Positions 7,352 through 55,785 of a stretch of DNA of 64,000 nucleotides are shown here, piece by piece. Both the position numbers and the translations under genes were made by a program. The stretch covers positions 506,001-570,000 of the forward strand of contig CAMXCT020003179.1 in assembly GCA_947184155.2 (NCBI GenBank). The letters are read 5' to 3'. The notes under the pieces were generated by a model that did no database searches, was not told the origin of the DNA, and saw only the letters and a list, made by a program, of their open reading frames with translations. Source of the stretch: Cladocopium goreaui (lineage: Eukaryota; Sar; Dinophyceae; Suessiales; Symbiodiniaceae). How positions within the stretch are numbered: position 1 is the stretch's first letter; each line of letters begins with the position of its first letter.

Positions 7352-7466
7352 CTGGTTGGTGGTGGTTTGGGAACATGAATTTTATTGACTTTCCATATAT
7401 TGGGAATTTTATCATCCCAACTGACGAACTCATGTTTTTCAGAGGGGTGGGTATACCACCAACCAG
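7352..7466 (+). mobile_element. TIR element family A, complete copy
   Basis: 115 bp element with ends CTGGTTGGTGGT and ACCACCAACCAG. The conserved interior is CATATATTGGGAATTT, ATCATCCCAACTGAC and TTTTTCAGAGGGGTGGGTA. No coding capacity. Frames on both strands through it are incidental. Confidence 0.88.
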
Positions 7467-8276
7467 ATATGATGAGTTCGGCATATTATTCCCGATGGAT
7501 CCAAACAACTCCTGAGAAGGTACAGACACCCCAGTCCCACTTCCTAAGAAGGTACGGCTGGATCCATAGGGATTGTATATACTTATTAATAACAACAACA
7601 ATGCATGTTACATATATCATATATACTGATTTTACATTTACACGCATATGATATATGTAATATATAGTATGTGTTTAAATTGTTTGGCTATTGGTCTGGC
7701 TTTTTTACGGGGATGTTATCTACTCTTACCAGTAAAGTTTGAGTGGTGACCCGACTGGTGCCATCCCCAGGAAATCTCGAGCGCATCAGGTGGTCTTTGT
7801 TCCATAGGCCCCGCTGGGATGACAAAACTCTGGGCGAATGCGCGAATGGCAATACTCGTCCACAAAAAAAGGACCAGAAAACATGTGTGCAAATTATGCT
7901 AATATTTGTGAGGGTCCTTCCTGTCATGAACGAGGGAAGTAGAATTGAAACAGGACACCATCATTTTCCAGGCTGGGAAAAAAACAACATCGCAATATAT
8001 TGCAATATCTTTTGCTAACGAAACATGGCACCAAATTTTCCTTGATGTGTCTCTTAAATGTGTGGGACATCTCATTTTTCATAGGGAAATTTCCCTAAAA
8101 ATTCCAGCGAGTTCAGCTCAGTTTAGCTGCCCCCCTTGGAGGTCACATGAGCGCAGCGCAGCGCAGTGGTGATCTGGTGATATGGTGCATCCTTCATTGG
8201 ATGACAGCATGGAACAGGATGAAAATCCACCATGTTCGCAGTGGGGATCATGATGTCGATGTCTTTTTTTTTTCAG
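7467..8276. other. Non-coding stretch with one weak exon-like patch
   Basis: AT-rich. A frame at about 7768-7880, after the acceptor-like CATCCCCAG, reads NLERIRWSLFHRPRWDDKTL and could be an exon, but I see no matching donor and no family. GCGCA repeats occur near 8150-8166. Confidence 0.35.
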
Positions 8277-8552
8277 GGCATGGATGTCATGGGAAACCCT
8301 TCGTTGTTTGCACAAGAGTTTCAGCACAGAGGGAAAATACATCAAACCCAAGAGAACGTTTGGTGGGAAACAGTCTCAAAATTTAATGTGGACCCCTTTG
8401 TCATGGATCCAATGATTGTATCAACTCGGGCAGGGCATTCACGTGTCGCAGACGCAGCTGTAGACCCACGATTAAGCCCCAGAAATAGGTTTGCAAGATT
8501 GTGTGTGCAAGACATGTACTTTGCTTCCAGCCTATTTGTGGATGGATTGTAG
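8277..8552 (+). CDS. Candidate terminal exon, 91 codons, product unknown
   Basis: An excellent acceptor (nine T then CAG, ending 8276) is followed by a frame open to a stop at 8550-8552. The peptide begins GMDVMGNPSLFAQEFQHRGK and later has RLSPRNRFARLCVQDMYF. I recognise no domain. A minus-strand frame overlaps it but lacks splice borders. It could be the last exon of a gene whose other exons are not visible. It sits between the cold-shock exons and the kinase exons on the same strand. Confidence 0.35.
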   Translation, partial: GMDVMGNPSLFAQEFQHRGKIHQTQENVWWETVSKFNVDPFVMDPMIVSTRAGHSRVADAAVDPRLSPRNRFARLCVQDMYFASSLFVDGL

Positions 8553-9577
8553 CTATACACAAAAGTTACTTACAGTGATGCGTCGTTTTTTGTCATTGAT
8601 AGATATATGTTATAGATCTGTTTGTGCAATATGTCATATCCAGGTTTAGTAAAGATACTTTTTCGCAGACGAGCGGCAGACTAGCACATAGATCAAATAG
8701 ATTTTGTCATTTCACAAGGCGTAGCGTGTCATGACTCGTGCATCTGAAGCTCAAGGAGGAACGTCACCATAAAACCGTCGTAGCAACGCTCTCCTGCGAT
8801 GGGAGGGTTATGAGGGATCAGGAGCTCTCCGAAGGGATGCGACGGAAAAAAGTGGTCGGAGTCTGGAAGAGCTGGAAGATATTGATACAAGATTTGAAGA
8901 TGAAACCGGCACCAAGTATCACTAGGTATCTCTAGGATTATCTAGGTACTAAGTATCACTAAGTGGGGTCCAGAAGATAACTGTTCATGTGCTGGGTATG
9001 GTCAGCATTAGGTTCTAGGATGTTCTAGGGATTTTCTATGGAAAGTTGTGAGTGTAATCCATCAAGGACACAGGAAGGTGATAGTCCCAGAGTTTCTATG
9101 TTTGGAACGGCTTTGTTACTCGTGTTTCTTGCGCATATTAAAGTTTATAGAGTCGGCCCCAAAAAGATAGAGCCGTAATTTAACGCTAGTTTAGTAGCAT
9201 ATTCTTTGCAATCTTTTAGGTTGACATACTCCATCACTTCTTTTCATACCCTAAATTGTGATGATTCATGATGAGGATGTCAATGCCCAGTGCATATCAT
9301 TTGGTTGAAACGATGGTTAATTAGAGAGAATCATCCCAAAGTCACCCAACATCCCAAGGATTGTCATCATTTTCATCATTAAAATTGCAGATTTTGGGTA
9401 GCCCTTTAGGCTGGGGCCATGAATTGCAACCAAGTTCAAGGCACAAATCGCGTTGCGGGGACCCATGGCTTTTTAGTGGGAACACTGCGGGACCCATGGC
9501 TAGAAATGGTCACCATCCCCCACAGGCTCCACAGGAGCTAAATGTGCAGTCTGGCAGTGGTATTCTCTGTTTGGATA
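8553..9577. other. Non-coding stretch, nothing firm
   Basis: A charged frame at 8738-8935 (HLKLKEERHHKTVVATL) and a Pro/Gly-rich one near 9380-9560 are open but have no clear splice sites. CTAGGTA/AAGTATCACTA repeats occur around 8910-8965. Confidence 0.35.
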
Positions 9578-9683
9578 TACCCTCCGGTAAACTGTCACAT
9601 AACTATGGACAATCACCATTTTTCATGGAACAATTCACTATAAATGGTGATGTTCAATAGCTGTGTTAAATTACCAGAGGGTA
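9578..9683. mobile_element. TIR element family B, complete copy
   Basis: Ends TACCCTCCGGTAAACTGTCA and TGTTAAATTACCAGAGGGTA are inverted, 106 bp apart, with an internal inverted pair AATCACCATTT and AAATGGTGATG. It lies about 100 bp upstream of the first kinase exon. Confidence 0.82.
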
Positions 9684-9785
9684 ACCAAGATGTGCCAAGT
9701 GAGATCATTTCCATGTGAAAAGTCCATGTTGTCAAAACCATTTCGGCATCTCCCCCTAGTGGACTCGACCCCGTCGCCGCTTCAG

Positions 9786-12700
9786 GTGTGGAGGGACATG
9801 CCGTACGATGCGAAGAGTGACATGTGGTCTTTAGGCTGTGTGCTGTATGAAATGGCCTGGGGCCTCAGCCTGTGCAAAGTGAAACACAGTGTGGGTCATG
9901 CTGTTCTCACATGTTCTTAGGTCAATGTTTAAAGAGGAAAAACCATGAAAACATGGCTCCCTACTCGTGCCGTTCTTTAAATTTTATTAGATATTTTTTG
10001 TTGGGACTGGGATGTTCGTCGCAGTACCTTCTAGGTCACTGTGTTTCCAGACAGTCGAGGATTTGCTGTTTGGGTTTGGGATATCCAAGTCATTCCAAAC
10101 GGGTAAGCTCGGTTGGGTAGCTTAACCAATTTCTTTTGGGCCGTTCTTTATAGTGTAGCAGTGGAACATATCATGGCATCGGTTCACAGAATTTATCATA
10201 TTCTCATTGTATCATGATTTGAAATATTAGAAATCAGCGAACTGATATCATGATTCTAGTAGTGCTGCAGTCTATATATTCGAATTTATATTGTGCGCTG
10301 AAAGAACTAGCATAGCCGACATTACGTGGCTTTCTGACGTTGGCGCACCCATGGGAGCATGGGCTTGCCCTCTAGGTAGCATTGCGACCACCCTTTCGAG
10401 CAGAAGACATGGAGGGCCTGCTGGGAGTCCAAGACGCCTTTTGTGGGAATTGGGCTGGGGGGGGGGTAACTTTTCCCAGTGGAAGCTGTATTAAAGCGCT
10501 AAGATCTAGATGTTTGGAAAATTCACACGAGATTTTGCTAAATGATACCTGAGCCAGTGTGATCAGGTATCGTCTATAGTTGATTTGTTGGGGTTACAGG
10601 ATTGGAACTCCCTTTGTGTTGCCGGGACGAGAAATAATGTGATTTCCACCTTGGGAGGCGAGCATCAACTTCAGCAACATCTGGGGGTACCGGGATATAT
10701 AAGCAAGGGACGATACATGGAAATTATTTGAAATGTGCAGGGATGCCTATAAGTCTATATTATAATATATATATATATATATATGTACAAAATATAATTG
10801 TAGATCTAAAGGTCCACTACAAAGGCCGCCAGGGTTCCAACATGAGACCCCGCAAAAGTTTTTCCCCACCTGCCAGGTGAGGGTTGTTAGATTTTATCAG
10901 AGCTGTTCTCCTCCTCCTCCGCCTCCTCCTCCATCTCCTCCTCGCAGTCCAGATCCCAGTGGGCACAGCCGGACCTCCACCGCGAGCTCCAGATCCCAGT
11001 GGGCACTGCCGGACCTCCACCGCGAGCTCCAGATCCCAGTGGGCACGAGCTCAAGATCCCAGTGGGCACTGCCGGACCTAAACCGCGACTTCCAGGTTGC
11101 AGTGGGCACTGCCGGACCTCAACCGCGACTTCCAGATCGCAGTGGGCACTGCCGGACCTCAACCGCGACTTCCAGATCGCAGTGGGCACTGCCGGACCTC
11201 AACCGCGACTTCCAGGTCGCAGCGGGCACTGCCAGACCTCAACCGCGAGCTCCAGATCCCAGTGGGCACTGCCGGACCTCAACCGCGAGCTCCAGATCCC
11301 AGTGGGCACTGCCGGACCTCAACCGCGACTTCCAGATCGCAGTGGGCACTGCCGGACCTCAACCGCGACTTCCAGATCGCAGTGGGCACTGCCGGACCTC
11401 AACGGGAAGAATGTCAGAAAAGATGTCAGATAGAATGTCAGAAAATATGCCATATAGAATGCCAGAAAGAATGTCAGATAGAATGTCAGAAGATATGCCA
11501 GACAGAATGTCAGAAGATATGCCAGAAAGAATGTCAGAAGATATGCCAGATAGAATGTCAGAAGATATGCCAGATAAAATGCCATGAGATATGCTGATAG
11601 AATGCCAGAAGATATGCCAGATAGAATGCCAGAAGATATACCAGATAGAATGCCAGAAGATATGCCAGATAGAATGCCAGAAGGTATGCCAAATAGAATG
11701 CCAGATAAAATGTCAGATAGAATGCCAGAAGATATGTCAGATAGAATGCCAGAAGATTTGCCAGTAAGAAAATGTATAAATGTCATGGTGGGGATCACAC
11801 GAAGTAAAGTATTTTTTTTTGGGGGGGGTGGGCGAAAGATTTAGCGAACGATGTTAACATGAGACCCCCACGAAAGATAAACGAGGGGTTCGCGAAAGAT
11901 TCGCAATTTTTTTTTTATTCGCGAAGAATGGCCGTTTGCAGATAAAGGAAGTGCAATATTTTGCGCTTACTGTAGCATCTGTAGTTTGGGGATGGGGTTT
12001 GCGTGGCAGATTTGGCGCGCACATGCCAAAAGAAGGGGCTCGAGCCCTGCTGCATGTTTTCCGGGCCTGCGCAATCGAAGTGATCAAGCGATCAGAGTGA
12101 TCAGAGTTTTCTTGTGTGCTGTGGCGTCTTGAACGCGCAAAACAGATAAACAAAACATCAAAAACAGTTGATACAGTCGGAGCATCCACATTGACAATAG
12201 GAAACCCACACACCAACTTGAGGTACAAAAAAAATGGGATCTGCGGGTAGTTGATTGTAGATATTGTAAGGAGAGCTACCCTACCCAATGTAATCAATAT
12301 AATCAATATATTATGGTGTTTACCATGAAAAGCTCAAGGGAATATCAGGAACCATCATTACCCAAGACATTTTTGACCCATGTTCACTTCTGTGTTTTTC
12401 AGGGTTTCTTGTTTGTTTTGACCTGTGGTTTGCATATGTTTGCATGTTTGGAGCTGAACCTAGGTTCCAAGAAATTTAGCCCGGCAAGTTGTGACACTGT
12501 TGACTTAAAATTGTGTTTGGCTAAATTTTCGGGTCCTAGCCCTAGAGGGACTAGGGCCAGGGGATTTAGCCTGGGAAAAAAAACCCTCATAGAAATTTAG
12601 CGGGCTAAATTCTGGGTCCTACCCCTTGTACGTAGTACAAACCCGGATAAAAAAAATATAAAGAAAGGAGGAAATGCTTTAGGATGTAGGTGGTTTGCAC

Positions 12701-15700
12701 GCCAAATCCTTGATTTGTTTTTTTCGTTTTTTTTTTTGCGGAAGGTTCTCCATGGGGCCCTCTCAGAAGATTGTCGTTTTTGTTTTTGTTTTTCCAAGTT
12801 TTTTTTTAACAGCACCTCCCCTCAAAAAAAAAGTGCAAAGTCTGGAGTGACGAAGGTAGATCATTGGGGAGGTGTGACCATATTATATATATATATACAT
12901 AACCATATCGGTGTGTTTGCGCAAAATATAGGGGCATAGCTATCAAACCAAGACAATTCTTGGCCCCACAGCCACAGCATATCTCCTGGCTGTGCGCCAA
13001 GTAATAGGTACCACAAAGTGGTTCGTGGCCAATATCCACGAATTCCTGCTCACTATGGCCAAGATTTGGCGGATGTCATCGCTGCACTACTGCAGGCCGG
13101 AGATGTGGGTGAGTTCATGTTGATCAGGTCTTCATGGCATAGCCTGATCTCAGCCTGATTTTCAGCCTGCCACTATTCGAGGCCTATGCAAATGGCAGAT
13201 ATATTCAAATAAAAAATTGGGCACTTTCGCCGAAACCCCAGCATTTTTGACCCTCATCTGAAATCCTATGACAAGGATTTCACATGTGGGGGTTTCCTAA
13301 AAATAGGGGTATCTCCACGTATCATCCCATTTTCATGGGATTTTTCATTGTAAACCATCCAGCGATAAAGGGGTACCACCGTGACTATGGTTAAACTGCC
13401 ATGAAACTGCACCGTCGGGACGCCGGGGACCTGGCAGACCTGGCAGGTCCACCCACGGAATAGGCCCAGCGTGGAGCAATTGCTGCAGATGCCACAGATG
13501 ATGCGGCATTCCATTGGCCTTCGAGAGGACGGGACGGGATGAATCATGATGAATCCCAGTCTTCAGAAGTGAAACACAGCCGAAAAGATATCCTTTTTTT
13601 TTGGGAAATCCCCTACATCCAGCATGGTTTCTATTAAGGAGGTGTTTCATGATTTGAATATGGGGGATCGGATTATAGGAGATGTGAATGTGAATCATAA
13701 CTGCTTGGTGGTTTGGAATTTGGAACATGGCTTTTATTTTCCCCAATAGTTGGGATGATGATCCAATCCGACTTTCATAAATTTCAGGGGGGTGGCTCAA
13801 CCACCATCAAGAGAATTGTTTTTTTCTGTAAAAAGATGCCAAAACCTGGTTTCCAGAGGCGACCTACGTCTATGGAAGTTGTTCTTTTGATGAGAAAACA
13901 TCCATGGCCATCCATGGCATCCCAACGATGGGACCCAAAGAGGCTCATACGATGATTTGATTTGGGATCTTCCAGTACCACTCGAATTTCAGAAAGGGAA
14001 AGATGGGCTGTGTACCCTAAAAAATCTAGGAAATCAGGTTCCAGAAAGAAAACAAACATATTGAGTACAGTACAAACTAGATATTTGATTTGATGCTAAA
14101 TATGATCAGCCAATTGTTGAGCACGTGCTTTCGGATTCCGAAGCCATGCCCAACTTGATAAGTCAATCTTCCAATTGGGGGGCAATTGAAGCCAGGAAAC
14201 TCGACCAGCCGGCGACCTGCATTTCTGGCCTGCTTTTGTAAAGCCCGGGGTATCCCGGTTACCACGAAACAAATGCAGAGGCCCTTAGAGGCCCCAAACC
14301 AAGGATATGACTGGTTCGGATTGCTTCAGATCTCGGCCAAAATTTTGGATAAGTGAGCCAAACGCTGCGAATCATGAGGACGGATGTAACCTGATCGCAC
14401 ATGTACATACTTGTTTTTTTTTCCCTTTAAATATGTATATTATATATAATTATATACCATATATATATATGTATATATGTATATATACCACATATACCTG
14501 TATACATCTGTACGCCTGCACATTTGTGTACAAGGTATGTCCCCAAAATTGGATGAACATCTAGTCGCTTGGCCGCCCGCTTGGCCGCCTCGGGATGCCA
14601 GGCTTTCAACGATCAAACTGCCGAAGAACGCGATTGATTTGCCGGGGCTCCTGGTTCCTTCATGGTGCTCCGATGGTGCTTGAAGCATCTTGAAACCCAT
14701 GATTTGCCTGGGAGAAAGATACCTTTTTTTCGTTCAAAAAAAGCAAGACATGACATCATGACAACCATCCTACCAACAGACAGTGTTTATATACACTATA
14801 ATTCACATATTAATGTTTAGTTATATATATATATATATCCCAACTGTGTGTTTACATGACAACCATCCCCCCAACTGTTAATATGTGTTTATCAGTTTTG
14901 GGGCTAAACCTTGCTTTGGCGGGTTGGTTGACACTTGCGTAAGCGCCAAGGAGTGGCTGTTTGCCCAAGCCGCGCTATGCCGGGGCTCCTGGGAGTCCTG
15001 GGAGTGCTGGGATGGCCCGGTGATCGCTGAGACAAATTGGATCATCCCGACCTCGACGACTGTAGGTGATGCTATTGTTCAAACATTTTTGTGGGTGGGT
15101 TATATAATGTTATATATATATAATATTAATTAATATGTATATATATATATATAATTAATATGTATATGCATGTATATATATAATATATTAAGAGATAGGT
15201 CATCCTTTCAGAAACAGATGAGTGAGTGAAGGAATAGCGAAGATGCGGGGGCCAACACAGAAAATGTATGAAAATGTGATAATCCTCGTGGTGACGGGCA
15301 AGATGGGTTGGGGAATAAGCCTCTGATGAAACCATATGAAATCCTAGGATTCTCTTGCCAGCAACCCCTACGGGGCCCTACGGTAACTGTGGAGCAGTAG
15401 ATAGTAGCTGCCTGTCGTTTTAGCGATTTCATCTATCAAAGCAAGGATGCATTGGAACATGCACATAGAATATCACAGAATACAACTGTCGAAAAGCAAT
15501 ATTAAGATAGTCAAGAGAAAAATAGAAGGACAATTTTGTACGTAGCAGTATGCCCTACAACATATTGTCACATATTGGCATGTCATCCCAGCTGCTCGCC
15601 ACCAATCGCTCCACTTGAATCCAGGTACCTTCCGATGAGGTCCTGCTGCACGACCAGGACCTGGGCCCCCACGTGCCGCCGGCAGAGCGGCCGCCCCCGG

Positions 15701-15836
15701 AGCGGCTGCCGGCCTCGGCGCATGCGCACCAAGCGCCGCCGCACGGCAGCGCGCCGGGCAGCGCGCAGGCACCACAAGCGTCGCAGGCGCTTGCGGCGCA
15801 TGCACCGCAGCCGCCACAAATGCCGCGGGGAGTGGG
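9786..15836 (+). CDS. NEK-family Ser/Thr protein kinase, C-lobe and tail (seven exons)
   Basis: Phase-compatible exons: 9786-9854 (VWRDMPYDAKSDMWSLGCV then LYEM, subdomain IX), 10376-10419 (VALRPPFRAEDMEGL), 13008-13104 (YHKVVRGQYPRIPAHYGQDL then ADVIAALLQAGD, subdomains X-XI), 13857-13888 (RRPTSMEVVLL), 14602-14653 (LSTIKLPKNAIDLPGLL), about 14951-15019 (LPKPRYAGAPGSPGSAGMAR) and 15625-15836 (Pro/Ala-rich tail, VPPAERPPPERLP). The order is that of NIMA-related kinases, including the conserved Arg of RRPT and the LP-K-P-x-Y tail after the kinase fold. Introns 1 and 2 have GC donors (9855 and 10420), introns 3 and 5 have GT, and intron 4 needs a GA or other unusual donor. NEK kinases phosphorylate proteins of the cell cycle, centrosome and flagella. 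The N-lobe and the HRD and DFG exons were not found upstream, so this may be partial or broken. The end of the gene is unknown. Confidence 0.78.
10765..10786. repeat. AT dinucleotide microsatellite
   Basis: A pure (AT)n run within kinase intron 2. Confidence 0.8.
10906..10946 (+). repeat. CCTCCT-rich pyrimidine tract
   Basis: A run of CTCCTC units directly before the 40 bp minisatellite in kinase intron 2. Confidence 0.75.
10951..11403 (+). repeat. 40 bp minisatellite in kinase intron 2
   Basis: About eleven units of AGTGGGCACTGCCGGACCTC followed by AACCGCGACTTCCAGATCGC or the variant with CGAGCTCCAGATCCC. Most units are exactly 40 bp; the third is shortened. Because 40 is one more than a multiple of three, the same peptide words appear in turn in all three frames, which explains the long open frames without any need for a gene. 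Confidence 0.94.
11404..11772 (+). repeat. 12/24 bp minisatellite adjoining the 40 bp array
   Basis: Units of AGAATGCCAGAA and GATATGCCAGAT alternate, with earlier units carrying TGTCAG in place of TGCCAG. The unit length is a multiple of three, so a plus-strand frame reads RMPEDMPD repeatedly. It sits within the intron between kinase exons 2 and 3, so I treat it as non-coding repeat. Confidence 0.9.
11773..13007. other. Remainder of kinase intron 2
   Basis: AT-rich sequence with homopolymer runs (T, A, G) near 11810-11830 and 12640-12830. A short direct repeat (AAATTTAGC / CTAAATTTTGGGTCCTA type) lies around 12470-12625. No exon with convincing borders. The acceptor for the next kinase exon is AATAG at 13003-13007. 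Confidence 0.5.
13291..13380 (+). repeat. TIR element family G, diverged copy
   Basis: Starts GGTTTCCTAAAAATAGGGGTA and ends CCATCCAGCGATAAAGGGGTA, matching the better copy at 46086-46185 in order and orientation. Its right terminus is degraded. It lies in kinase intron 3. Confidence 0.5.
13700..13807 (+). mobile_element. TIR element family A, diverged copy
   Basis: Starts CTGCTTGGTGGTTTGGAA and ends in CAACCACCATCAAG, with the interior TTTCAGGGGGGTGG corresponding to the conserved CAG block. It lies about 50 bp upstream of kinase exon 4. Confidence 0.68.
14410..14500. repeat. AT-rich simple sequence
   Basis: ATAT and GTATATAT runs within kinase intron 4, with no other structure. Confidence 0.6.
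15095..15195. repeat. AT-rich simple sequence with ATTAATATGTATAT repeats
   Basis: Two copies of TAATTAATATGTATAT within TA runs, in the intron before the Pro-rich tail exon. Confidence 0.6.
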
Positions 15837-16162
15837 GGGCTTACTTTCCTGGGAGGATGCCTATTATGGACGATTAGACCTTACAAAGCATTATAAGTTG
15901 AAGGTATAGACTATAGTTTCACCAGGTTTGGAAGCAAAGAGTGCACTTTTGTTATCTGTGGGCACTATGAGCAACAAGTATACTGTACCGTATGTCATAG
16001 GTTGGTATGTCTCAAAATTGGGAACATCATGCCAAATTGCAAAGTTCAAGGAGAATGATTGTAATTACTTTGAATGGTGATCATGGTGTGGTGTCCCCGT
16101 GTCACCAATGATCACCAATGCATTTTCTAAAATTACGGAAAAATTGGGTGTTGATGAACGTG

Positions 16163-16310
16163 CATATATTCTGGATGAATTATAATGACGTCAGCGTGTT
16201 GCCAGTGAAAGGGTGGTTGATAAGGGAAATGATCAGCAAATGACCTTATTTCAGCCTTATTTCAGCTAGTGTAATTAATGTTAGTGAGTGATTTACTATA
16301 ATTTAGCAAA
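16163..16310. mobile_element. TIR element family F, diverged copy 2
   Basis: Aligns with the copy at 3908-4032: CATATATTCTGGATGAATTATAATGACGTCAG at the left (shown by its parts CATATATTCTGG and AATTATAATGAC), CCTTATTTCAG in the interior (duplicated here), and TTAGTGAGTGATTTACTATA at the right. The termini are more degraded than in copy 1. Confidence 0.5.
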
Positions 16311-17433: not shown

Positions 17434-17498
17434 GTGAGCGCCTTGCGCCCTCCAGCGAGGCAGCGGACACGGCGATGGGTTTGTAACTATAAAAGGTG

Positions 17499-17601: not shown

Positions 17602-18969
17602 CAATGATGATTGGTTTTGTTTTGATGAGACATGTGTTGGCAAATATTGGGTCGTGACAGTTTGTGTCAAAGTATGTTATCAGTGAACATCAGTGACATG
17701 TGCTTTTGAAGTCATCAATGGCGCTACCATAATTTAGAATGTGACGAGTCCACAGGCAATTTGGGCGACAAAAGTGGTCTATATCCCCGCTGTTTCTTCG
17801 TTTCCCCCCCATTTGTATAAATTTGGTCTGCTTACCGGTTGAGATAAAAAGGGATGTGTTCCCCAGTTAGATCCAGTTAGATTATTCATGGACTTCCCAG
17901 CAGGAAATCGCGCAATGCCAATCACTGTAAATGACCACTACGATCATGCACAATTCACAGGAAGCAACAACTGGCTGTTTGTATGTGTCAACATGATCAT
18001 CCACCACAATCGGCCACAAAGATCATATACATATATACTTGAATCCTCCGATCCTGCATTACTTTAATTACTTCAGCCCCTTAGCAAAAGGCACAACAAA
18101 TCAGCCCCTTGAGTTGATTTCAGGTCTTGAGCGAGATCTCTGCCCCTTGCATTTTTTGGGGGATGGAAATGAAAAGGACAAGGAATTTGCTTTTCAAGCA
18201 CTGAAGGAATGGACTTGGTGAACGATTGGCGGGAGCTTTTTGTATTGGAGGCATGTTGTTTTCCCAATGTTTTTTTCCCCAGTAGCGCACCCTCCAAGGT
18301 GGACATGTCAGCCCATGGTGCCAGATTACAGAACACATTCACAGCTTGAACATGGTTGGACAGTTTTATCTATTTTAAATCCCATGTTTGGCAAACAATC
18401 TTTGTTAAATCAACCCAAAGCTCAGTGCTTTTAAATCGGTCATTGCCGCCTTAGCTTCTTAAACCTATGGACTAGAAGTCTGGCTTTGGTTCTATAGACC
18501 AAAGGGGTGCTGCCTGAAATGTTGCCATAGCCGTACGCGCCCCACGAAATCTTCACTTGAAGACGTGTCCCACACAACTGGATTCAATGAGTAGACATTT
18601 TGCCATGTCTGCTCCAGCATGCTCCAGCTCAAAATAGATATAACCCAAGGCATGTGCTTTTGTCACTAGACCATAAAAGGTAAACTGTCGACCGAACGCT
18701 AAAGCAGCACAAACCAGCCAAAAGGCTGTACGTGCGACAAAACCCTTTGGACACCTAATAAATTTGTCCGGCACCCCAAAAAAGATGAGATGCGCCGAGC
18801 CTTTGCACATTCCCCAAACGGGCATTTGGTAAGTGCCCTTTACAAAATGGCAACCCTTGACACGAAAGACCTCCTAAACGGTGCCCGGGCAATTCTGCCC
18901 CTCAGACGGGTATTTCCGCCCCTTATATTTTAAATTTCCCAATAAACATGTGATCAAACTCACATTGAA
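17602..18969. other. Non-coding stretch, nothing recognised
   Basis: No TIR pair, tandem repeat or splice-bounded exon seen. Frames on both strands near 18.1-18.8 kb are short and lack supporting signals. Confidence 0.45.
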
Positions 18970-19500: not shown

Positions 19501-19523
19501 CTGATTTTCTGGGTCTGTTTTAG

Positions 19524-19632: not shown

Positions 19633-21320
19633 CATTTAACAATTTGCGAACTGGAAAATCACCAGGTCAATCACCTTTCACAATTTCCATTAGAACAGGA
19701 ACAATCTATAAAATGGGAACACATATAGACATGCGAATCATGTACTTAAAAAAGGTAGAAGTAGTATATATTGTAAATCGACAATGTTCACCAATTGTCT
19801 CTGGCTATGTTAAGTTACCAGAGGATAGTCAAATTTGGCAATCACTGGGCTTATCAATTGAGCCTAGATGGATGACACACATAGACATAGACATAGACCA
19901 TGGCAAACCGATTTATAATATGGTTGTCAATTTTTCTTGCCATGCTACTTTGTTGGAGATAACCAATTTATAATATGGTTTTTCGAATTTTCGTATTGTT
20001 GCCATGCCATTTGGAGATCCATTCCCTCTATCCCAACGGTGAGACCAGAGACCGAGACCGCACTGCACGGCACGGCGCCTCCATCATGGCGTCATGGGAT
20101 CTATGGGATCTGGTCACTCCGAATGCTGTGGTGTGAAGAAACTCGGCTAGCGTCCTGTGGAAATCCTGTTTACCCTCTGGTTATGACTAACATAGCCATG
20201 GAAAATCCCCAAAATAAATGGAGGTTTCTATCCCATAGATGATGTCCCCGGCTTTCCTCGGGCCAACTCTACTAGAACTATATACAAGAACTCTCAGCTG
20301 GCTCTATGTGGATAGATCAACCCCTGCGCCCCTACGCTGTGATGTCCCTTTTGTCGCTTAGTTATTGCTGGTTAATACCCATAGGGTCGTAGAAGGGGGG
20401 TGATGGTTTAGTCCTCATTTTTTAGGACTTCAATTCATGACTGAATAGATCCAATGTGTTTTGCCGGGATATTGTTAGTGAGGGGGTGCCACGTTCATAA
20501 TTATAGTCTTAGGATGTATTAGGGTGAAAGGAGTAGCTGGGGTATGACGATTCATAGGTCATTCTTAGAGTAATATCTCCCTCGTTGTTTCATTTTTGCC
20601 GATTGGATGGGCGCAAATTTCATGCATTGCTATTTGTTTGCAGGGTATCCAACATCAGGTGTGATAAACATCTCTGACATAATTTGGTTCATGTTTACTA
20701 CTAAATCGCGAAGTAGATTCCATCACTGATGGTAAGCCGACTAACTAGTTCCACCGCTCATATCGGACCGTGGTACGATATGATATTTTTCGCATTCGAA
20801 GTGCATGCCATGTTGATAATTCCAATGGAAAAAATATGCACAGATCAAAGAAGCTTTGAAACGCGTAGTTCCATTGGTGGAAATTTCTCATGTTGTTCCC
20901 ATTCTAATTTCCTCATCAAACGTGGTTTCAAGCCGCCCCCAACTATTAGTTTGTTTGCATGTTATCAATTTTCTGAATCGCAGTAATAAGGGGAAATGAT
21001 GGGAAATGCATACATGTCATTTGTCCCAAAGGAATTGCGTGGTTTCACACATTCCAGCTATCAGGGGTTGAAAGAAACCTTAATTTTTTTTGTGCCGAGC
21101 GTTTGGAAGTCACGTGGCTTTCAGCAATCTTTTCAATGAATAGAACTCGTTTGGTGTGGCAGACATCACCGATTGTAGGTAGACAACTTGAAAGACTAGG
21201 TCAGATACGGCTGGATCAACCATTCGGTGGCCTGCCACTTTGGGACTGACTGGAAACTTGTTTCCCAAGAAACCTTTCAACTCCAACCAGGAACGATCTA
21301 GAACTTGTGTTCCAGCATCC
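19633..21320. other. Non-coding stretch with a family B left-end fragment
   Basis: TTTACCCTCTGGTTATGACT at about 20168 followed by AACATAGCCATGGAAAAT is a family B left half. The rest has no supportable exon. A minus-strand frame at 21110-21376 (includes LELKGFLGNKFPVSPKV) ends in the satellite and matches nothing I know. Confidence 0.4.
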
Positions 21321-22519
21321 AAGACGCAAGTGCCAGGTACGTTAACACCCGCCCACCCCTCACCCCATGGTGACATGACGCAAGTTCCAAGACAACGTGC
21401 TTAGCGTAGCATCATCTTCAAGACGCAAGTGCCAGGTACGTTAACTTAACACACCCGCCCACCCCTCACCCCATGGTGACATGACGCAAGTTCCAAGACA
21501 ACGTGCTTAGCGTAGCATCATCTTCAAGACGCAAGTGCCAGGTACGTTAACTTAACACACCCGCCCACCCCTCACCCCATGGTGACATGACGCAAGTTCC
21601 AAGACAACGTGCTTAGCGTAGCATCATCTTCAAGACGCAAGTGCCAGGTACGTTAACACACCCGCCCACCCCTCACCCCATGGTGACATGACGCAAGTTC
21701 CAAGACAACGTGCTTAGCGTAGCATCATCTTCAAGACGCAAGTGCCAGGTACGTTAACACACCACCCCTCACCCCATGGTGACATGACGCAAGTTCCAAG
21801 ACAACGTGCTTAGCGTAGCATCATCTTCAAGACGCAAGTGCCAGGTACGTTAACACACCCGCCCACCCCTCACCCCATGGTGACATGACGCAAGTTCCAA
21901 GACAACGTGCTTAGCGTAGCATCATCTTCAAGACGCAAGTGCCAGGTACGTTAACACACCCGCCCACCCCTCACCCCATGGTGACATGACGCAAGTTCCA
22001 AGACAACGTGCTTAGCGTAGCATCATCTTCAAGACGCAAGTGCCAGGTACGTTAACACACCCGCCCACCCCTCACCCCATGGTGACATGACGCAAGTTCC
22101 AAGACAACGTGCTTAGCGTAGCATCATCTTCAAGACGCAAGTGCCAGGTACGTTAACTTAACACACCCGCCCACCCCTCACCCCATGGTGACATGACGCA
22201 AGTTCCAAGACAACGTGCTTAGCGTAGCATCATCTTCAAGACGCAAGTGCCAGGTACGTTAACTTAACACACCCGCCCACCCCTCACCCCATGGTGACAT
22301 GACGCAAGTTCCAAGACAACGTGCTTAGCGTAGCATCATCTTCAAGACGCAAGTGCCAGGTACGTTAACACACCCGCCCACCCCTCACCCCATGGTGACA
22401 TGACGCAAGTTCCAAGATAACGTGCTGTAGCGTAGCATCATCTTCAAGACGCAAGTGCCACGAACGTTAACACACCTGCCCACCCCTCACCCCATGGTGA
22501 CATGACGCAAGTTCCAAGC
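21321..22519 (+). repeat. 12-unit satellite array, about 101-106 bp unit
   Basis: Units begin AAGACGCAAGTGCC at 21321, 21420, 21526, 21632, 21733, 21829, 21930, 22031, 22132, 22238, 22344 and 22446. Lengths are mainly 101 or 106 bp; the 5 bp difference is GTTAACACACC versus GTTAACTTAACACACC. Unit order: CAAGTGCCAGGTACGTTAAC, CGCCCACCCCTCACCCCATG, GTGACATGACGCAAGTTCC, ACAACGTGCTTAGCGTAGCA. Only the last two units carry base changes. It shares a core with the 5.0-6.0 kb array. Confidence 0.96.
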
Positions 22520-23028: not shown

Positions 23029-23226
23029 TAACCATTATCAACCATCATGAACCATCATTAACCATCGCAATAACCATCATTAACTGGTTGGTGGTTTGGA
23101 TCATGTTTTATGTTTCCATATATTGGGAATTTCATCATCCCAACTGACCATTCATCAACCATCATTAACCATCATTAACCATCATTAACCATTACAATAA
23201 CCATTACAATAACCATCATTAACCAC
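23029..23226. repeat. AACCATCATT tandem repeat split by a family A fragment
   Basis: Ten-base units (AACCATCATT, AACCATTACAAT variants) flank 23084-23150, which is the left part of family A: CTGGTTGGTGGTTTGGA through ATCATCCCAACTGACC. The right end of A is missing, and the tandem repeat resumes directly after its CAACTGACC. Confidence 0.75.
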
Positions 23227-23361: not shown

Positions 23362-23769
23362 GTACGGTAGGTCCGGTAGGTACCCGTAAGGGTCCAGTTC
23401 GAAGTGGCTTGTTGGGATCTACAGATGGGTTAAAAATATGGTAAAAATATGTAAAAATATTGGTGTGTGATAGGATTAAAATAGGATTATGATGGAATTT
23501 ATGGGATATGATTGATATGATGTAATAGGATTTAAATAGTTCACCCTCCGGAACATCAAAATTAGCTAGCTGGAGAATCCCCGAATTATGGCTGGAGTCT
23601 TACAGCTGGGAAACTGTTTCAACAGTTCAGAAGAGAGACTCTAAACCAGTTTGTCACTCTTGTATACTGCGTACCGTTCAACTATAAATGGAGGATTTGC
23701 GTACCAGAGGCTATCCATAGTAACAGGGGGGTTATATAATATTATATAACGTGATATATATATATATAT

Positions 23770-23886
23770 GGTTGGTGGTTTCAAACATGTTTTATTTATT
23801 TTTATTTTCCATTTCATATATGGGTTGTCATCCCAACCCCATTGACTATTTGATATTTTTCAGAGAGGATCAATCACCAACCACCA
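23770..23886 (+). mobile_element. TIR element family A, diverged copy
   Basis: Left end GGTTGGTGGTTTCAAACATG, right end ATCACCAACCACCAG, interior TTTTTCAGAGAGGAT. The ORF running through it is incidental. A further degenerate A-like piece lies at about 24056-24135 (TTGGTTGGTAGTG to GAAACCACCATTGATGG). Confidence 0.7.
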
Positions 23887-24313
23887 GCCACTTCTGGAAG
23901 TCAATAAGCACCACCCGCAATTTTTGGATACCCAACCAGAAAACAGTAGGCAATCAGCCAACCAAACATGATGATGAAACCAACTTAAAATATGGGGACA
24001 TCATGATACATCATGAACGTAGAAATATCTTAATTATCATATAACCAATGATGACTTGGTTGGTAGTGTCAATGATATTATGTTCTTATTCCCCAATGAC
24101 GAGCATATGGTTCAAGGGGTTGAAACCACCATTGATGGTGAAGTGTGAGCTAACCTGGGGTCATTTACTGATATAGTCAATATAGTTTCGTCAAACATGG
24201 GGGTTGACCATGTTGAAAGGGACCAACAACAAAGCAAAGATTTGGACGTCATCGTGAAAATATGGAAACCGCCATGGAAACAGTATTATTCGGATTTGTC
24301 TTGGAATTGCGAC

Positions 24314-27953: not shown

Positions 27954-28071
27954 CTGATTGGTGGTGACTGGAACCATGGAATTTTATGACTTTCCATTCA
28001 GTTGGGAATGGAATAATCATCCCAACTGACGAACTCATATTTTTCAGAGGGGTGGGTATACCACCAACCAG
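27954..28071 (+). mobile_element. TIR element family A, complete copy
   Basis: Left end CTGATTGGTGGTGACTGGAA, right end TATACCACCAACCAG, interior GGGAATGGAATAATCATCCC and TTTTTCAGAGGGGTGGGTA. It differs from the 7352 copy mostly near the left end. Confidence 0.85.
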
Positions 28072-29035: not shown

Positions 29036-29345
29036 ACCATACACTACCATACATTACATTACATTACAGTACATTACATTACATTACAGTACAGACAGAC
29101 AGACATACAGACATACACACAGACAGGCAGACAGACATACAGACATACAGACATACAGACATACAGACACAGACACAGAGACATACAGACATACAGACAT
29201 GCAGACATATAGACATACAGACATACAGACATACAGACATACAGCCATACAGGCATCCAGGCATCCAGGCATCCAGGCATCCAGACATCCAGACATCCAG
29301 ACATACAGACATACAGACAAACAGACACACATACATTTACATATA
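29036..29345 (+). repeat. ACATT and ACAT/ACAG microsatellite
   Basis: Pentanucleotide ACATT units (29040-29090) lead into a long (ACAG/ACAT)n block, with CATC variants near 29250-29300. Cys/Val/Leu frames on the minus strand and Thr/Asp/Ile/Gln frames on the plus strand are produced by it. Confidence 0.95.
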
Positions 29346-35742: not shown

Positions 35743-36045
35743 TAAAATGCATCAGTCATTGGTAATTATTTAGACTCGGACCAATGCCGGAGTCCGTTGG
35801 ACAAAAAAGGGGCGGCGCTTGGATGCAACAATGCGGCCAGGCAAATCAGTACCGTCATGTTTTTTTTAATGAAAGTTACGGTATAAAACACCGGCAAAAG
35901 ATGACAGTACAGTCGGGGCTATATTTTTCCACTTTTTTCCAACAGAAATAATTAGGATGCCGCCAGAAAGATTGCAGGCAACTTATGAGCTACACAAGAG
36001 ATACAACAACCACTGATTGTACCCATTAATTACTGGTTTCTTGCC

Positions 36046-49456: not shown

Positions 49457-50075
49457 GTGTTCGGTTTGGGAGGCTTCCAACTGGATTGGATGTTTAGTAC
49501 AAATAAACATTTAGCACATAAGATAGTTATATAGATAATATATATATATACTATAATTATGTGTATCTATATAATTATATAGACACATTAATTATGTGTA
49601 TATATATGTATATATATAAACCAACTGAATTGGATATAGTTCGATATTTCGTATAACTGATTTGTTTGCTATATAAAGTGGACTATTTAGTAATGAAAAT
49701 TGCAGGGTATCGAGGCTTGGCCAGAGGTACATTGAATCCCTCCGGAAGATGAAATATGGTGGATTGGATGCAATCCTGCACCAGCTAATAGGTGTTAAAC
49801 ATCCCATTGTTTATAGGTTTTCAACCATCCGGTTGGTGATGCGGGATTTCTTCCATCCACCGTAGGTTAGGGGTTACCAGGGTCACCGAAATTCTGAAAA
49901 ACTCAAATGTGATTGTCCTATCCACAAGTATTTTTCCATTGCTAGATTTTATTTACACGCAGAAAAAACAATGTTGCGCCCAACAAAATGAGAAATCAGA
50001 CGCATTTGCACGCCAAACACATTTTTTGACCTGTAGTAATATGACTTCATATGGCCATGGAAAATTACGAATTTG
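49457..50075. other. Non-coding stretch, nothing recognised
   Basis: TA and ATTATGTGTATA repeats at 49530-49615, otherwise plain sequence. Confidence 0.45.
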
Positions 50076-50304
50076 TACCCTCTGGTAATTTAACATAGCT
50101 ATCGAAAATTACAAATTTAGTTCGTTGATTTACCTATGAAAGATTGTGATTTTCCAGTTCGCAAACTGTAAACTGGTTGGTGGTGTGGAACATTTTTTAT
50201 TTTTCCATATATTGGGAATGTCATCATCCCAAGTGACAAACTCCATCATTTTTCAGAGGGGTTTTGCTCAAAACCACCAACCAGTAAATGTTTACCAGAA
50301 GGTA
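50076..50304. mobile_element. TIR element family B interrupted by a family A copy
   Basis: Left end TACCCTCTGGTAATTTAACA at 50076 and right end AAATGTTTACCAGAAGGTA at 50304 form a family B element whose right arm is separated from the rest by a complete family A copy (50173-50284). A nested insertion: A is younger than this B copy. Confidence 0.8.
50173..50284 (+). mobile_element. TIR element family A, complete copy nested in B
   Basis: Ends CTGGTTGGTGGTGTGGAACA and AAAACCACCAACCAG; interior CATATATTGGGAATGTCATC and CATTTTTCAGAGGGGTTTTG. The flanking TAAA/TAAA bases (GTAAA left, TAAA right) may be a target duplication. Confidence 0.88.
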
Positions 50305-53179
50305 AATGATTTCCCTTGGAAATGGCCATTGAAGCCATGGCAAACTGGCAAGAATCAGCAGTCACATGGAACTCCGGAGGTCCCCGGCGCTGAGGTCAGC
50401 AGTTGCTCTGATCCCTCCGGTCATGTGCCGACCTGCAGCAGCCTGACATATCGATGGGATCATGGGGTCATGAGTCATAAGTCATCAGCAATAGGGAGTT
50501 TTTATTGTGATCTTTGTTCATATTTTATCATTTTTTTATGGATCTGTTGGAGAATGTACTAATTAATATTGTATTTGGATATGTTTGAAAATGGGATATA
50601 CTCCCAAATGGCCGATTTTTAGGTGAGAAAATGATGAACCAGCCGATGCCATGTCCAAGGAAACACTCCCTATCTGAACCTGAGGGGTACCCTATCGGAC
50701 CAAGCCATGCTTGAGCCATCAAATCCCGGAGCTGGATGCAGTTCAATCCATTGATGAAAGGGACCGGTAGACAATAGGGATATTGCTACTGTAGGGCCGT
50801 AGTGCCCCTACGCCTTAGGCTGCAGGTCAGGCAGAGATGTTTTTCTTTGATAATTTCCAGCTGTTCAATTTTCCTCTTGGGGGATTGCCATCATTCCCAC
50901 CGTGGAGGTTACTATGGTAGTACAACCCGGTTTGCTCAACCCGGTTTGCTGAAGGGTACTGGTTCTGTTGCAGTGCTCACTGAGATTTGTGCGAGAACTG
51001 CTACACCAAAGCATGCCTGATTGACGGTGGCTCGAACGCAGATGTTAATACATGGTGGGCGTTTGGAGAGTAGTCATGTTCCCAGCATTCGACAGCCGTG
51101 TGGCTGATTTCGGTTCATTGATCCGCCCCAATGATTGAGGTTGTTTATTAACCCTTAGAATCGTGGTTCTTGGTGATTCACAATATTAAGGATGTTGAGA
51201 TGTATTGGTTTACTAGATTATGAACAGTTGTGAACCATTATGAACCCCACATGTGGTCAACCCTCATGGTAGATATTCAGAACCCTTCTTTGTTGGTGGT
51301 TAATACTCCCTCATGTTATTCGTTGACCTTTTGGGATACATTTATAATCACACGTACGTGTATATATATAATAGTGTATAATTATATATATATATATATA
51401 CATATTGCATGTAGTATATGTGTATATGAATATATATATATATGATTATGTATTTGATCATCAATTTTGGATGGTTGATAATTTTGACACCACCATTCTG
51501 AAACTTTTTGTTGTCTTGAGAAAACAGCTCACAGAACTAGGTCGCTATTTGCAGTGCGGGTACCTTGGTTGCAACGGAAACGCGGTGCTGGATCCTATCT
51601 GGCCTTGAGATTAACGTGCCGAATCTTGACGTGTGCAGTGTATGCCAAAGGTTAGCAGTAAGTAGATGCTGGTCGAGCATATTACTACTACATCACTACA
51701 TGCTATGTGTTTTTCAGATCAGAGTTACAGAGTAGCAGTTTGTCAACTCCAGGAGATAGATAAAATCAAGCAACTGAGTAGTGGCACACATGCAAAAGTT
51801 CAAGGGCCCAGATGACTCGTCCAAGTTCACTATGGGCCCATCAAGGATGAACAATGCAGTAGCATAACAGCCTGGAGAGTTGCACCGGACCAAGGGCGGC
51901 TACACCCTACTGGGAGCCAAACAAGAAGCAGCTGAGATGCAGGGTTCATTGTTTTTTGTGTGTTTTTTGCTAAACATAAAATGCTGTTTATATCTTACTG
52001 TAAATAGTTTACATTGAAGGTCTGAACTGACGGGTTCTTGCTTGATGGTTCTTGCACATTTCTCTAAAACTACTATTTCCGAAAAGGGTGCGTTCGGTTT
52101 GGAAATCGTGGAAAAAGTCGTGAGCATTGACAGCGCACTCAAATTGGGGGATGACATCCATTTCGAATCACCACCGCAGGGAATCAGTCGAACCATGAAT
52201 GAATGATCATTGGTGAAGATAGATCAAAGCATTCGAAGCAGGATTCATATGTGGAAGAAAGGGAGAGAAATCAGGAAGAAATTAGAAATAAAATCAAAGC
52301 GGATCACCCCAAGTGATAATTACTGATTGTTATCTTTCTTTCGGACCAGGTCTTGCTCAACTACTTGGAAGAACATCCCCATTGACCGTCAAAGGGGTTC
52401 GAAAGGAGTCTCCCTACACGGGGTCAAATTCTGCTGTGGAATCACTTACTGATTTTCGCTGTGATGCTACTCTCTCAGTGATGAGACAACCAACGTGATG
52501 AAGCCCATACCATCCCATACCCATAAGCGTTAGTTTCAAAACAGCTGTTTGTTGAATGTTTAAGTGCTAGTAAATGTGAAATGATTTCAACAACTGAAGT
52601 CATCCATAAGGTTAGTTGTGCGTCAAAGGGGCTGTATTTGTCGTTATTCATGTGCCATTTGCTTAAGTTGATGATATTCCCATGTGAAGTGGGTTATAAC
52701 CCTGGTTACAAGTACAGCAGGCAAAGAGAGGCAATATTTTCAGTTAAAAACGGGTTGAACCAGCCCACTTACTGCAGTGAACCAAGTACGCAAACATCAA
52801 ACACCTCATCGATACACGTCTAAGGTTCATTTTGTTGTCGTTAAACCCATCAAACAATAACAGTTTCTATTACAAAACACAATGTATTATGATGTGTAAT
52901 TCCTACAATCATCTCTTATAATAGTCATTGTATTGATTCATCCAATAGTTGTGATATATTATTTATAGTTGTTTTTTTCTCTATTTAGCATATGATAGTT
53001 GTGATATTATGTTTAATTGTACGTCAAACTATTGTGATATATTGCAGACATTGACATATTTAGCTAATATGTTAATTATGTTCAACTATCTATTTAGATC
53101 TACTAATATAACTATTTAACTATAGTCTTTCTTAAATGCATATTTATCAAACAGAAAGCGCCTGTTTTTTTACCCCTAG
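50305..53179. other. Long stretch with weak exon-like pieces only
   Basis: Pieces that might be exons: 50345-50450 (HGTPEVPGAEVSSCSDPSG), 51715-51760 after TTTTTCAG, and 52350-52385 after GACCAG (VLLNYLEEHPH then stop). A minus-strand frame at 51900-52196 is open but unassigned. ATAT runs at 51360-51445. Nothing firm. Confidence 0.35.
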
Positions 53180-53245
53180 GACCTGTGCCAGCTTGTGCCA
53201 ACCTCCTCCGGGACCTTCGCCGTCGCCGTGCGCCGATCATGTTTG
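53180..53245 (+). CDS. Candidate small Pro/Cys-rich exon
   Basis: Acceptor TACCCCTAG ends at 53179 after a T-rich tract; donor GTGCAT begins at 53246. All three frames are open (TCASLCQPPPGPSPSPCADH, DLCQLVPTSSGTFAVAVRRS, or PVPACANLLRDLRRRRAPIM), so only the location is supported. Confidence 0.35.
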
Positions 53246-53289
53246 GTGCATTTTTGTGCCTGGGATTGGGGGGGTTGAACATGGTTTAG

Positions 53290-53605
53290 CCAAAAAACAA
53301 ATGTAAATATATAATAATATAATATATATATATATATAATATACATATTATAGATTATTATAATAGATTATATAGATTTTATAGATTATATAGATTATAC
53401 ATATTATATAGACTGTATAGATTATACAGGTTATATAGATTATATAGATTGTATAGATTATATAGATTGTATAGATTATATAGATTATATAGATTATATA
53501 GGTTATGTGTATGATTATATAGGTTGTGTGTATGATTATACAGGTTGTGTGTATGACTATATAGATTATATTGATTATATTGATTATATTGATTATGTGT
53601 ATGAT
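53290..53605. repeat. 9 bp tandem repeat (TATAGATTA)
   Basis: Starts with AT runs, then TATAGATTA/TATAGATTG units for about 170 bp, then GTGTATGATTATATAGGTT and TATATTGAT variants. The unit length of nine keeps a minus-strand frame open (Tyr-Asn-Leu repeats), which is not a gene. Confidence 0.94.
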
Positions 53606-54006
53606 TATGCAGGATTATGTAGATTTGATACGCTGTGCGCAGCAATTTGACCACCGGAAATTGGCAGTAAGGCAACAAAGATGGGGATTTGACTTCGAAA
53701 GACTGGGAGTTGAACCAACATGCACAAGAACTATAACGTACAAAATCGGAGTTCCTCATGCATATACAAATCTACGAAGGAAAACAGGATTTCACTAACA
53801 TAAATTCAGGTTCAGCATACTTAACATCGATACATCGGATTTAAGCAGGATTTAATCAACAATGAATAGAATCAGGAGCTTGTAGACCAAGGTTATGGGG
53901 ATGAAAACCCTCTCCAAAGGGGTTTTATCCCCGATGGATGGATAATATATGGTTAATAATTAATATGTATTAATATGTTATAAGTCAACCATAGATGGCC
54001 ATGTTC

Positions 54007-54034
54007 AGTAACAAACTGTTAAGTTAACCAGAGG
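54007..54034. repeat. Family B right-end fragment
   Basis: ACTGTTAAGTTAACCAGAGG is a worn right TIR of family B. Confidence 0.4.
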
Positions 54035-54197
54035 CTAGTTCTTGTTGGCGGAAGTGAATCGATTCACCCTTCGGGATAAGCTGAGGCGATGTTAGTATCC
54101 TGGTTGCGTGGCAAAATGGACCAACATAAGACAGAATAGTTATATAATATTATACTGATAGTATATAATTGGCAAAATCATCTATCAATTGGATATT

Positions 54198-54290
54198 TGG
54201 TTGGTGGTTTAGAACTTTTTTTCCATATAATTATTGGGAATAATCATCCCAACTGACTAATATGTTTCAGAGGGGTAACTTATTATAGGG
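54198..54290 (+). mobile_element. TIR element family A, right end lost
   Basis: Starts TTGGTTGGTGGTTTAGAACT, keeps ATAATCATCCCAACTGACTA and TGTTTCAGAGGGGTAAC, then diverges before the right terminus. Confidence 0.7.
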
Positions 54291-54401
54291 GGTACCAGTT
54301 CCAACAATATATATTTATCGCTATGTTGGGGTGACCCATCGCAATTGGTAGTCAGGGTTGAATACATTAGTCCGGTGATATGAATTACCATGGCCCTAGA
54401 T

Positions 54402-54499
54402 ACCCATAGGATCCATGTATGCTATATATATGGTAACATGGATCCCATCAATATACCCCAAATGTTAGCATGCATACCAGCACCATGGATCCTATGGGA
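54402..54499 (+). mobile_element. TIR element family E, complete copy
   Basis: Ends ACCCATAGGATCCATG and CATGGATCCTATGGGAT are perfect inverted repeats around a BamHI-type GGATCC. The interior has ATCCCATCAATATACCCC. 98 bp. Confidence 0.82.
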
Positions 54500-54535
54500 T
54501 ATACAACAGGTGCATAAAACATCATAAAACTCTAG

Positions 54536-55785
54536 GTGAACTTCCACGGATCGGAGTTGTTCGACCTTGACTTCACGCAGTTTCGACGCCAGGTACAGCC
54601 AGAGGTATCCCACACCCATGCCGAGTCTCGCAGAGATTTGGGACGTTTTGAAGTCACGGTGTTGGGATGTTGGCAGCATTTGTTGATCTTACGAATTGGA
54701 GATGCCTCAATATCTATGAAATCATACTATAATTATCTATAAGTATTCAGAACGGCATTCCATTTAAGAACGGCAGTCCATAAAGATTACAGAAACATTA
54801 CAAAAACATTCATTGACAAGCCATGTTTTTCACGTGAAGGCGCTGGGCTACCAAGGTTTTACTGTACATTGGGGCCGTCTTGATAGAAAAAACCTTTGGT
54901 AAATGTTTACAGTTTGCTATTGAAAATCACTTTATGTTTATTACTGGTTGGTGGTTTGGAACAGTTTTTATTTTCCATTTCATATATGGGATGTCATCCT
55001 TCCCATTGGCTAATATTTTTCAGAGGGGTAGGTATACCATCAACCACATGAGGTAAATCAACTATAATCAACTTTTCAGGGTGTGCAATCCCGATCTGAT
55101 TCCCAACATTATCCCAGCACTGCAGTGGTTATTATGTTTCCCAAAGCCTCCCGCGCAATGGGCAGAGCATGTTTGTAGATTCCCATAATTGTTCTACTGA
55201 CCATTGTGGACTACAATCCCGCGGTAGATTATATTGTAGAATATGATATAGATATATATGTTACATATAATTACACACATAATTGACATACTGGGTTTGT
55301 TATATACATACATATACATATACATATATATATATACATAATTAACATACTGGGTTTAAAAACATGTTTGGACGACCACTAACTATCAAAATGTGTGGAT
55401 TGACAAGAGATTATGTTGATTTTTACCATGTTTGTTGTTGCTAATCCAAAAATGTTGATACTCCAAAATATATGGGGATGGGTCAAAACCTTGTACCCCT
55501 AGTGAACCCCAAAATAGTTGGTAAATGGATGTTCATCCCATTAAAAATGGTATGTATAGGTATTGACCCATACCCATATGTTCATGGATTACCCTAGCCT
55601 TTTTAGCCTCCCATCTCTTTCTGAATCTCAGGGTGCCTTCGCCCGCCCTGGCCCCGACGCCTTCCCCTACGGCTGTGGCTCCGGCGCCGTCGACTGAAGC
55701 CAAGTGCAGCACGGACAGATGGGACGCGGTGGCGCTTCGTGGTGCACAACAAATAGTTGCTGGAACCCAAGGAACAAGGAAATGA
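54536..55785 (+). CDS. Hypothetical protein, two exons with stop
   Basis: Exon 54536-54592 (acceptor CTCTAG, canonical donor GTACAG) reads VNFHGSELFDLDFTQFRRQ. The next exon begins at 55632 after CTCAG. If spliced in phase 0 it reads GAFARPGPDAFPYGCGSGAV then stops at 55695-55697. In another frame it reads PSPALAPTPSPTAVAPAPS, then TEAKCSTDRWDAVALRGAQQ, and stops at 55783-55785. The phase favours the first, while length and composition favour the second. No domain recognised. The intron contains a family A copy nested in family B remnants. Confidence 0.45.
54890..55056 (+). mobile_element. Family A copy (54944-55046) inside a worn family B
   Basis: Family B left arm remnants (CCTTTGGTAAATGTTTACAG, GCTATTGAAAAT) precede CTGGTTGGTGGTTTGGAACA at 54944. 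The A copy keeps TATTTTTCAGAGGGGTAGG and ends ACCATCAACCA at about 55046, followed by GAGGTAAATCAAC. A second case of A inserted in B. Confidence 0.75.

Follow-up and report, generated by a model that had tools for sequence, protein, structure and literature searches.

The stretch of DNA analyzed here, a window of 64,000 nucleotides (positions 506001 to 570000 in a contig that is 582,475 b long), comes from a dinoflagellate, probably Cladocopium proliferum SCF055, formerly C. goreaui (PMC10666404; this and the other papers with PMC numbers are cited from extracts), and carries a short repeat, family A, that had been predicted from the sequence of the window to act as an introner. A profile search locates eight copies and one fragment, all on the plus strand (Table 1). 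The profile was built from six of the window copies, so that these six match by construction, and the weak fragment was added by its re-estimated version. All eight copies of the original prediction were recovered, six at the predicted start and two displaced by one base (13701 and 23769 instead of 13700 and 23770), and their motifs are more frequent in the window than expected by chance: with up to two mismatches, the terminal inverted repeat (TIR) CTGGTTGGTGGT has 23 matches versus 5.63 expected (largest of 100 shuffles, 12) and the inner motif TTTTTCAGAGGGG has 10 versus 2.23 (largest of 100 shuffles, 8). The termini are shared less widely than had been claimed, the copies at 23084 and 54198 having no right end and the right TIR being exact only at 7352, 27954 and 50173; the pyrimidine run followed by CAG is indeed present in all seven window copies that extend so far. 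That the copies have a common strand is a point the original prediction had not raised. A second repeat of the same genome, family B, is an ordinary MITE-like (miniature inverted-repeat transposable element) repeat of about 110 bp that, like family A, has TIRs but is unrelated to it; its ends are TACCCTCTGGTAAAC. No gene was established in the window, where open reading frame length and GC content gave only noise, and a search of it with Rfam returned no matches at the gathering score.

Table 1. Repeats and other features of the window and of the contig around it (window coordinates; for entries marked c3179, subtract 36000 to obtain the window coordinate)
Feature	Coordinates	Strand	Remarks
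Family A copy	7352..7466	+	full length, both TIRs exact
TTTTTCAGAGGGG block within copy 7352	7435..7447	+	pyrimidine run; not the acceptor in the two exon cases
Family A copy	13701..13811	+	full length, TIRs degraded
Family A copy	23084..23153	+	left part only, runs into tandem repeat
Family A copy	23769..23887	+	full length, ends degraded
Family A fragment	24084..24131 (c3179 60084-60131)	+	weak, 17.5 bits
Family A copy	27954..28071	+	full length, right TIR exact
Family A copy	50173..50284	+	full length, both TIRs exact, TAAA target duplication, inside family B element
Family B element, approximate	50093..50308	.	split by the family A copy at 50173 (joined flanks)
Family A copy	54198..54279	+	without right end
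Family A copy	54944..55047	+	full length
Family B, about 110 bp	c3179 2334-2443, 3650-3767, 3964-4074, others (L009-L020); L025-L026	both	TACCCTCTGGTAAAC / GTTTACCAGAGGGTA ends
Short inverted-repeat family	c3179 8307-8405, 17613-17717, 29207-29313, 35939-36036		TACCCATAGGATCCATG ends
Short inverted-repeat family	c3179 8876-8999, 52554-52670		ACAATGTGAGGCCCCC ends
Long open frame	57478-64000	+	2690 codons including contig beyond the window
Tandem array	145-1650		unit about 174-181 b
Tandem array	5044-6017		unit about 80 b
Tandem array	21320-22518		unit about 101 b

The genome (1,165,616,438 b in 6202 contigs) was searched with exact motifs, each accompanied by its reversed form as a control. 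CTGGTTGGTGGT occurs 79,640 times (39,893 and 39,747 on the two strands; control 128 + 138, or 266) and TTTTTCAGAGGGG 27,678 times (13,822 and 13,856; control 21 + 18, or 39). Scaled by the seven exact TIRs or four exact inner motifs found per nine copies in the window, these counts suggest a family of roughly 60,000-100,000 members, although a single window is a crude basis for extrapolation; a family A 37-mer gave only 14 matches, too few to use. Individual copies are about 91-124 bp long, with a 12-bp TIR and, where visible, a 4-bp target duplication. Across 27 full-length copies (25 from the stretches examined and the kinesin and HSP70 exon cases described below) the parts that are kept are CTGGTTGGTGGTTTGGAACA, YTGAC, TTTTTCA and ACCACCAACCAG, while the middle differs in length and sequence. 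YTGAC is among the best-kept inner blocks (T in 25, G in 27, A in 24 and C in 24 of the 27), and the interior branch-point region that had been predicted is therefore plausible. The inner spot proposed as the acceptor reads CAG in 20 copies, TAG in one and CAAG in six, and the motif of the CAAG subfamily has 8,083 exact copies in the genome (control 24). Target duplications of at least four letters accompany 7 of the 25 copies, versus 0.54 expected from pairing unrelated flanks; five of them have four letters, one has five and one has seven. Ten TIR pairs are unchanged in 13-15 of 15 aligned copies, and for each of four copies the fold is better than that of any of 200 shuffles of the copy (z -3.05 to -5.73). 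No claim is made for RNA structure as a driver, changes on both sides being seen in only 1 of 16 consensus pairs.

Conserved genes provide the evidence that family A gives rise to introns. From lists of exon matches (81 for HSP70, 104 for kinesin), gaps that were short and contiguous in the protein were chosen, 5 and 10 respectively, and two of these 15 gaps consist of exactly a family A element and its 4-bp target duplication. In a kinesin gene on contig C3546, AACAAGA is followed by GTTT, a family A element (52.6 bits, E 6.7e-17) and GTTTGAGTGCC; the GTTT duplication is perfect, and removing GT...CAG restores INKSLSALGNVINAL, which reads N-K-S-L-S-A. In an HSP70 gene on C6140, CAG is followed by GCAA, a diverged family A element (14.1 bits, against at most 6.9 in 2000 two-letter-block shuffles) and GCCACCATT, which starts with GCCA, and removing GC...CAG restores SSSTQATIEIDS (S-S-S-T-Q-A-T-I-E-I-D). 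Reading frame and homology, on which the anatomy in both genes rests, place the predicted 5' splice site in the left 4-bp target duplication (GT in one gene, GC in the other, GA in neither) and the predicted 3' splice site at the CAG that ends the right TIR, and from them we infer that both introns are spliced. The donors published for this species are GT (36.6%), GC (43.6%) and GA (19.8%), with AGG as the acceptor in 96.1% (PMC9412976); a G[T/C/A]NN duplication would supply what is needed on both sides. Judged by these two genes, family A is an introner. The intron-capable element of the original prediction is to this extent borne out, with its acceptor misplaced, the terminal CAG apparently being used in both exon cases instead of TTTTTCAG. 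A third gap, in an HSP70 paralogue on C1780 (L032), shares the site and the left end, scores only 4.7 bits and, past the left end, continues as different, family-B-like sequence; this gap is a degraded relative of the C6140 intron and represents the same event, not a third one. The other 12 gaps contain no family A (nine in kinesin by profile, L033-L035 by reading), and gap L042, which reads open throughout, probably holds no intron.

For the most part, the copies examined have the appearance neither of introns nor of elements bounded by exon junctions. A G stands directly after the right end in 3 of 25 full copies and in none of the six full-length copies of the window, whose flanks were read; this, and the position of one of the six inside a family B repeat, speaks against the window copies being introns. 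An HSP70 gene on C2112, with 14 exon-like segments, all plus, holds two full family A copies and one fragment in its introns, the full copies lying about 140-440 b from splice sites read by eye; the HSP70 genes on C7 and C693 contain no family A, nor do the kinesin introns L046-L047 (11.2 kb). In the window, joining the flanks of the copy at 50173 yields a sequence that matches seven family-B-like places, each match spanning the join; the joined flanks of the copy at 54944 match one such place (70.9% over 79 b), and those of the other four of the six copies tested match none. In L029, a family A copy is preceded, at a distance of about 100 b, by an additional short stretch resembling the left end (about 8294-8313, E 0.028).

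On scales from tens of kilobases up to about 1 Mb, the listed copies of family A are coherent in strand and those of family B are not. Among the sites listed, to which the site counts on individual contigs given here refer, the 98 pairs of neighbouring family A sites on C2 and C3 include 4 with a change of strand (P 1.2e-23 under random independent strands). On C2, three TTTTTCAGAGGGG sites at 422-457 kb are plus, those from 616 kb to 1.714 Mb are minus with one exception, and a site at 1,862,007 is plus again, the minus block spanning about 1.1 Mb; on C3, 50 of 50 sites are minus. The second subfamily motif (CAAG) changes strand in 3 of 83 neighbour pairs on 17 contigs, counted by hand, with the same switch on C2 and only minus sites on C3. 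Family B, by comparison, changes strand in 58 of 95 neighbour pairs (C2 and C3 hold 76 of the 100 sites listed for it) and unlike family A has both orientations side by side. The genome-wide strand totals are even for both families, and within the stretches examined 29 of 30 family A copies match the strand of their block, the exception being a truncated copy. That family A is an introner and is coherent in strand in this way is, taken together and leaving the cause aside, highly probable. The exceptional plus site in the minus block of C2, at 1,472,643, lies some 100 b from a family B site and is perhaps a small inversion.

The 1.1-Mb block resembles the one-way gene blocks of dinoflagellates (PMC9412976, PMC11453091), and the coherent strand is probably the sense strand of such blocks. 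The two full copies and the fragment in the C2112 introns are all sense to the gene, the kinesin and HSP70 exon cases being sense of necessity. At 400-433 kb of C2, five of five coding-like segments, one of them a sub-threshold EF-hand match, are on the strand of the copies (mean of shuffles, 0.5), and on C1391 an HSP70 exon and a family A copy 92 kb apart are on the same strand. A codon model trained on HSP70 exons found 61 segments in a 112-kb stretch of the window's contig, 45 plus and 16 minus (shuffles 2-11); it was not used for the window because a retroelement and tandem repeats inflate it. Ten candidate exons were compared with Pfam, and three matched at E<=1, all below the cut-offs (best, EF-hand, 0.0059). 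As a map of gene strand, an ankyrin motif gave 701 matches, on listed contigs that barely overlap those listed for family A.

On these data, family A would be a non-autonomous TIR DNA transposon working as an introner. Insertion into an exon in sense orientation at G[T/C/A]NN would duplicate the target; the left duplicate would become the 5' splice site, the element would supply the branch-point-like YTGAC, the pyrimidine run TTTTTC and, as terminal CAG of its right TIR, the acceptor, and the right duplicate would provide the G of AG|G, splicing then restoring the coding sequence exactly. As the cause of the strand coherence we tentatively prefer strand-aware insertion, because sense copies within introns gain nothing obvious and because family B, of the same size, is tolerated in both orientations. 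Integration might, as we provisionally suppose, sense which way transcription proceeds, or which way replication does where it runs with transcription.

Several points weigh against this account. How a transposase could sense the strand is not obvious when the ends it acts on are near-identical, and 18 of 25 full copies have fewer than four duplicated letters. The HSP70 copy on C6140 is diverged, and its GCAA/GCCA duplication agrees in three of four letters; two introns in 15 gaps is not a rate, since the gaps were selected for shortness. The strand lists comprise the first 100 sites listed per motif and hence the first contigs only. Support for the sense strand is thin and mixed: the published gene annotation, with a single orientation in only 34.7% of ten-gene windows (PMC9412976), is less coherent in strand than family A; at 490-510 kb of C3, eight of eight copies are minus and, of four weak coding-like segments, three lie on the plus strand and the strongest on the minus strand; and single far comparisons disagree on C18 (at least 166 kb), C13 (260 kb) and C5871 (496 kb), where the strand may switch between gene and copy.

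The main rival to strand-aware insertion, possible although somewhat doubtful, is selection, whereby insertion would be random and antisense copies in transcribed blocks would be harmful and then lost. The branch point and the pyrimidine block can be used in order only in the sense orientation, and in this species transposon genes that run against the block direction are without expression (PMC9412976); direction therefore matters somehow. However, family B, alike in size and TIR design, is kept both ways on the same contigs, and the copies in the C2112 introns are sense though nothing should require it there. We consider it unlikely that the strand lock tracks the direction of the replication fork and not transcription: the blocks are long, and in bacteria the TnsE pathway of Tn7 reportedly orients integration by the fork, but the small number of gene comparisons made close to copies agree for the most part with transcription. 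Less likely again is that most copies are true introns of unrecognised genes, which would make their sense orientation trivial. Dinoflagellates have many unrecognised genes, and the two introns that appear exact in frame would fit this explanation. Genes with their introns also span much of this genome, but the rarity of a G after the copies contrasts with the near-universal AGG acceptor (PMC9412976). Moreover, two full copies lie well inside the introns of a conserved gene, and the copy at 50173 sits in a family B repeat. Reverse splicing, by which copies would spread as RNA into transcripts and be automatically sense, would account for the orientation within introns but is very improbable, for the unit would bring its own left GT/GC tetramer, yet the copies are preceded by diverse tetramers and target duplications are above chance. 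It is just as hard to credit that the inner TTTTTCAG serves as the acceptor and owes its conservation to this role, as had been predicted: YTGAC followed by TTTTTCAG does resemble a textbook 3' splice site, and CAG is present in every window copy reaching that far, but its G is kept in 21 of 27 copies and the preceding TTTCA in 26-27, which counts against the prediction by its own refuting test, the CAAG subfamily is abundant, and use of the inner site would break both proteins, yielding a TAG stop in kinesin and adding 17 nt with a shift of frame in HSP70, where in both cases the frame points to the terminal CAG.

Introners of this design are already known. In Symbiodinium microadriaticum, introner family 1 (Gozashti et al. 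2022, PMC9860276), to which family A is likened by the description of its design and not by sequence, has TIRs, a length of 115 bp in an example with stated coordinates, a 4-bp target duplication and its own 3' splice site, with the 5' splice site coming from the duplication, as predicted for family A; the kinesin case on C3546 matches this design exactly and the HSP70 case on C6140 with one changed letter of the duplication. Introner families that, like family A, make introns in dinoflagellate genomes were reported by Roy et al. 2023 (Curr Biol), as cited in PMC11453091. The introner elements of Amoebophrya (Farhat et al. 2021, PMC7789003) likewise have inverted repeats, with 3-5-nt direct repeats at the intron ends and a possible hairpin, but their intron ends are mostly non-canonical, whereas the two family A introns would be GT-AG and GC-AG. 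Strand-locked copies outside exon junctions are not described for family 1 in the extracts of PMC9860276, nor does such a lock appear in those of PMC7789003, PMC10522408, PMC11114475, PMC10666404, PMC11453091, PMC9412976 and PMC12730881; Roy et al. 2023 may treat it.

Introners have been suggested to be a major route by which new introns arise. Family A runs one way over long blocks, apparently mostly off exon junctions, while the similar family B is mixed on the same contigs, which makes a choice of strand at insertion versus later sorting testable. If the copies do lie on the sense strand, they would be a dense marker of transcription direction where annotated orientation is noisy (the 34.7% above; PMC9412976). 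If integration is strand-aware, nearly every insertion, whether in exon, intron or spacer, would be in a spliceable orientation, the transposon would do less damage because it reads the polarity of its target, and the copies would mark the direction of transcription along the genome.

Among the other repeats, the inner 17-mer of family B has 22,501 exact copies in the genome. The open frame from 57478 contains, by eye, stretches resembling a zinc finger, an integrase and a reverse transcriptase, of Ty1/copia type. The longest contig of the assembly, C1 (7,377,000 b), has one exact family A TIR among the matches listed, the genome mean being about 68 per Mb, and matches HSP70 at three places, the best match being full length and uninterrupted; it may be a bacterial contaminant, and the source culture is called xenic (PMC9412976). 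The 21-b dinoflagellate spliced leader has 172 exact matches in the genome and its reversed control has none.

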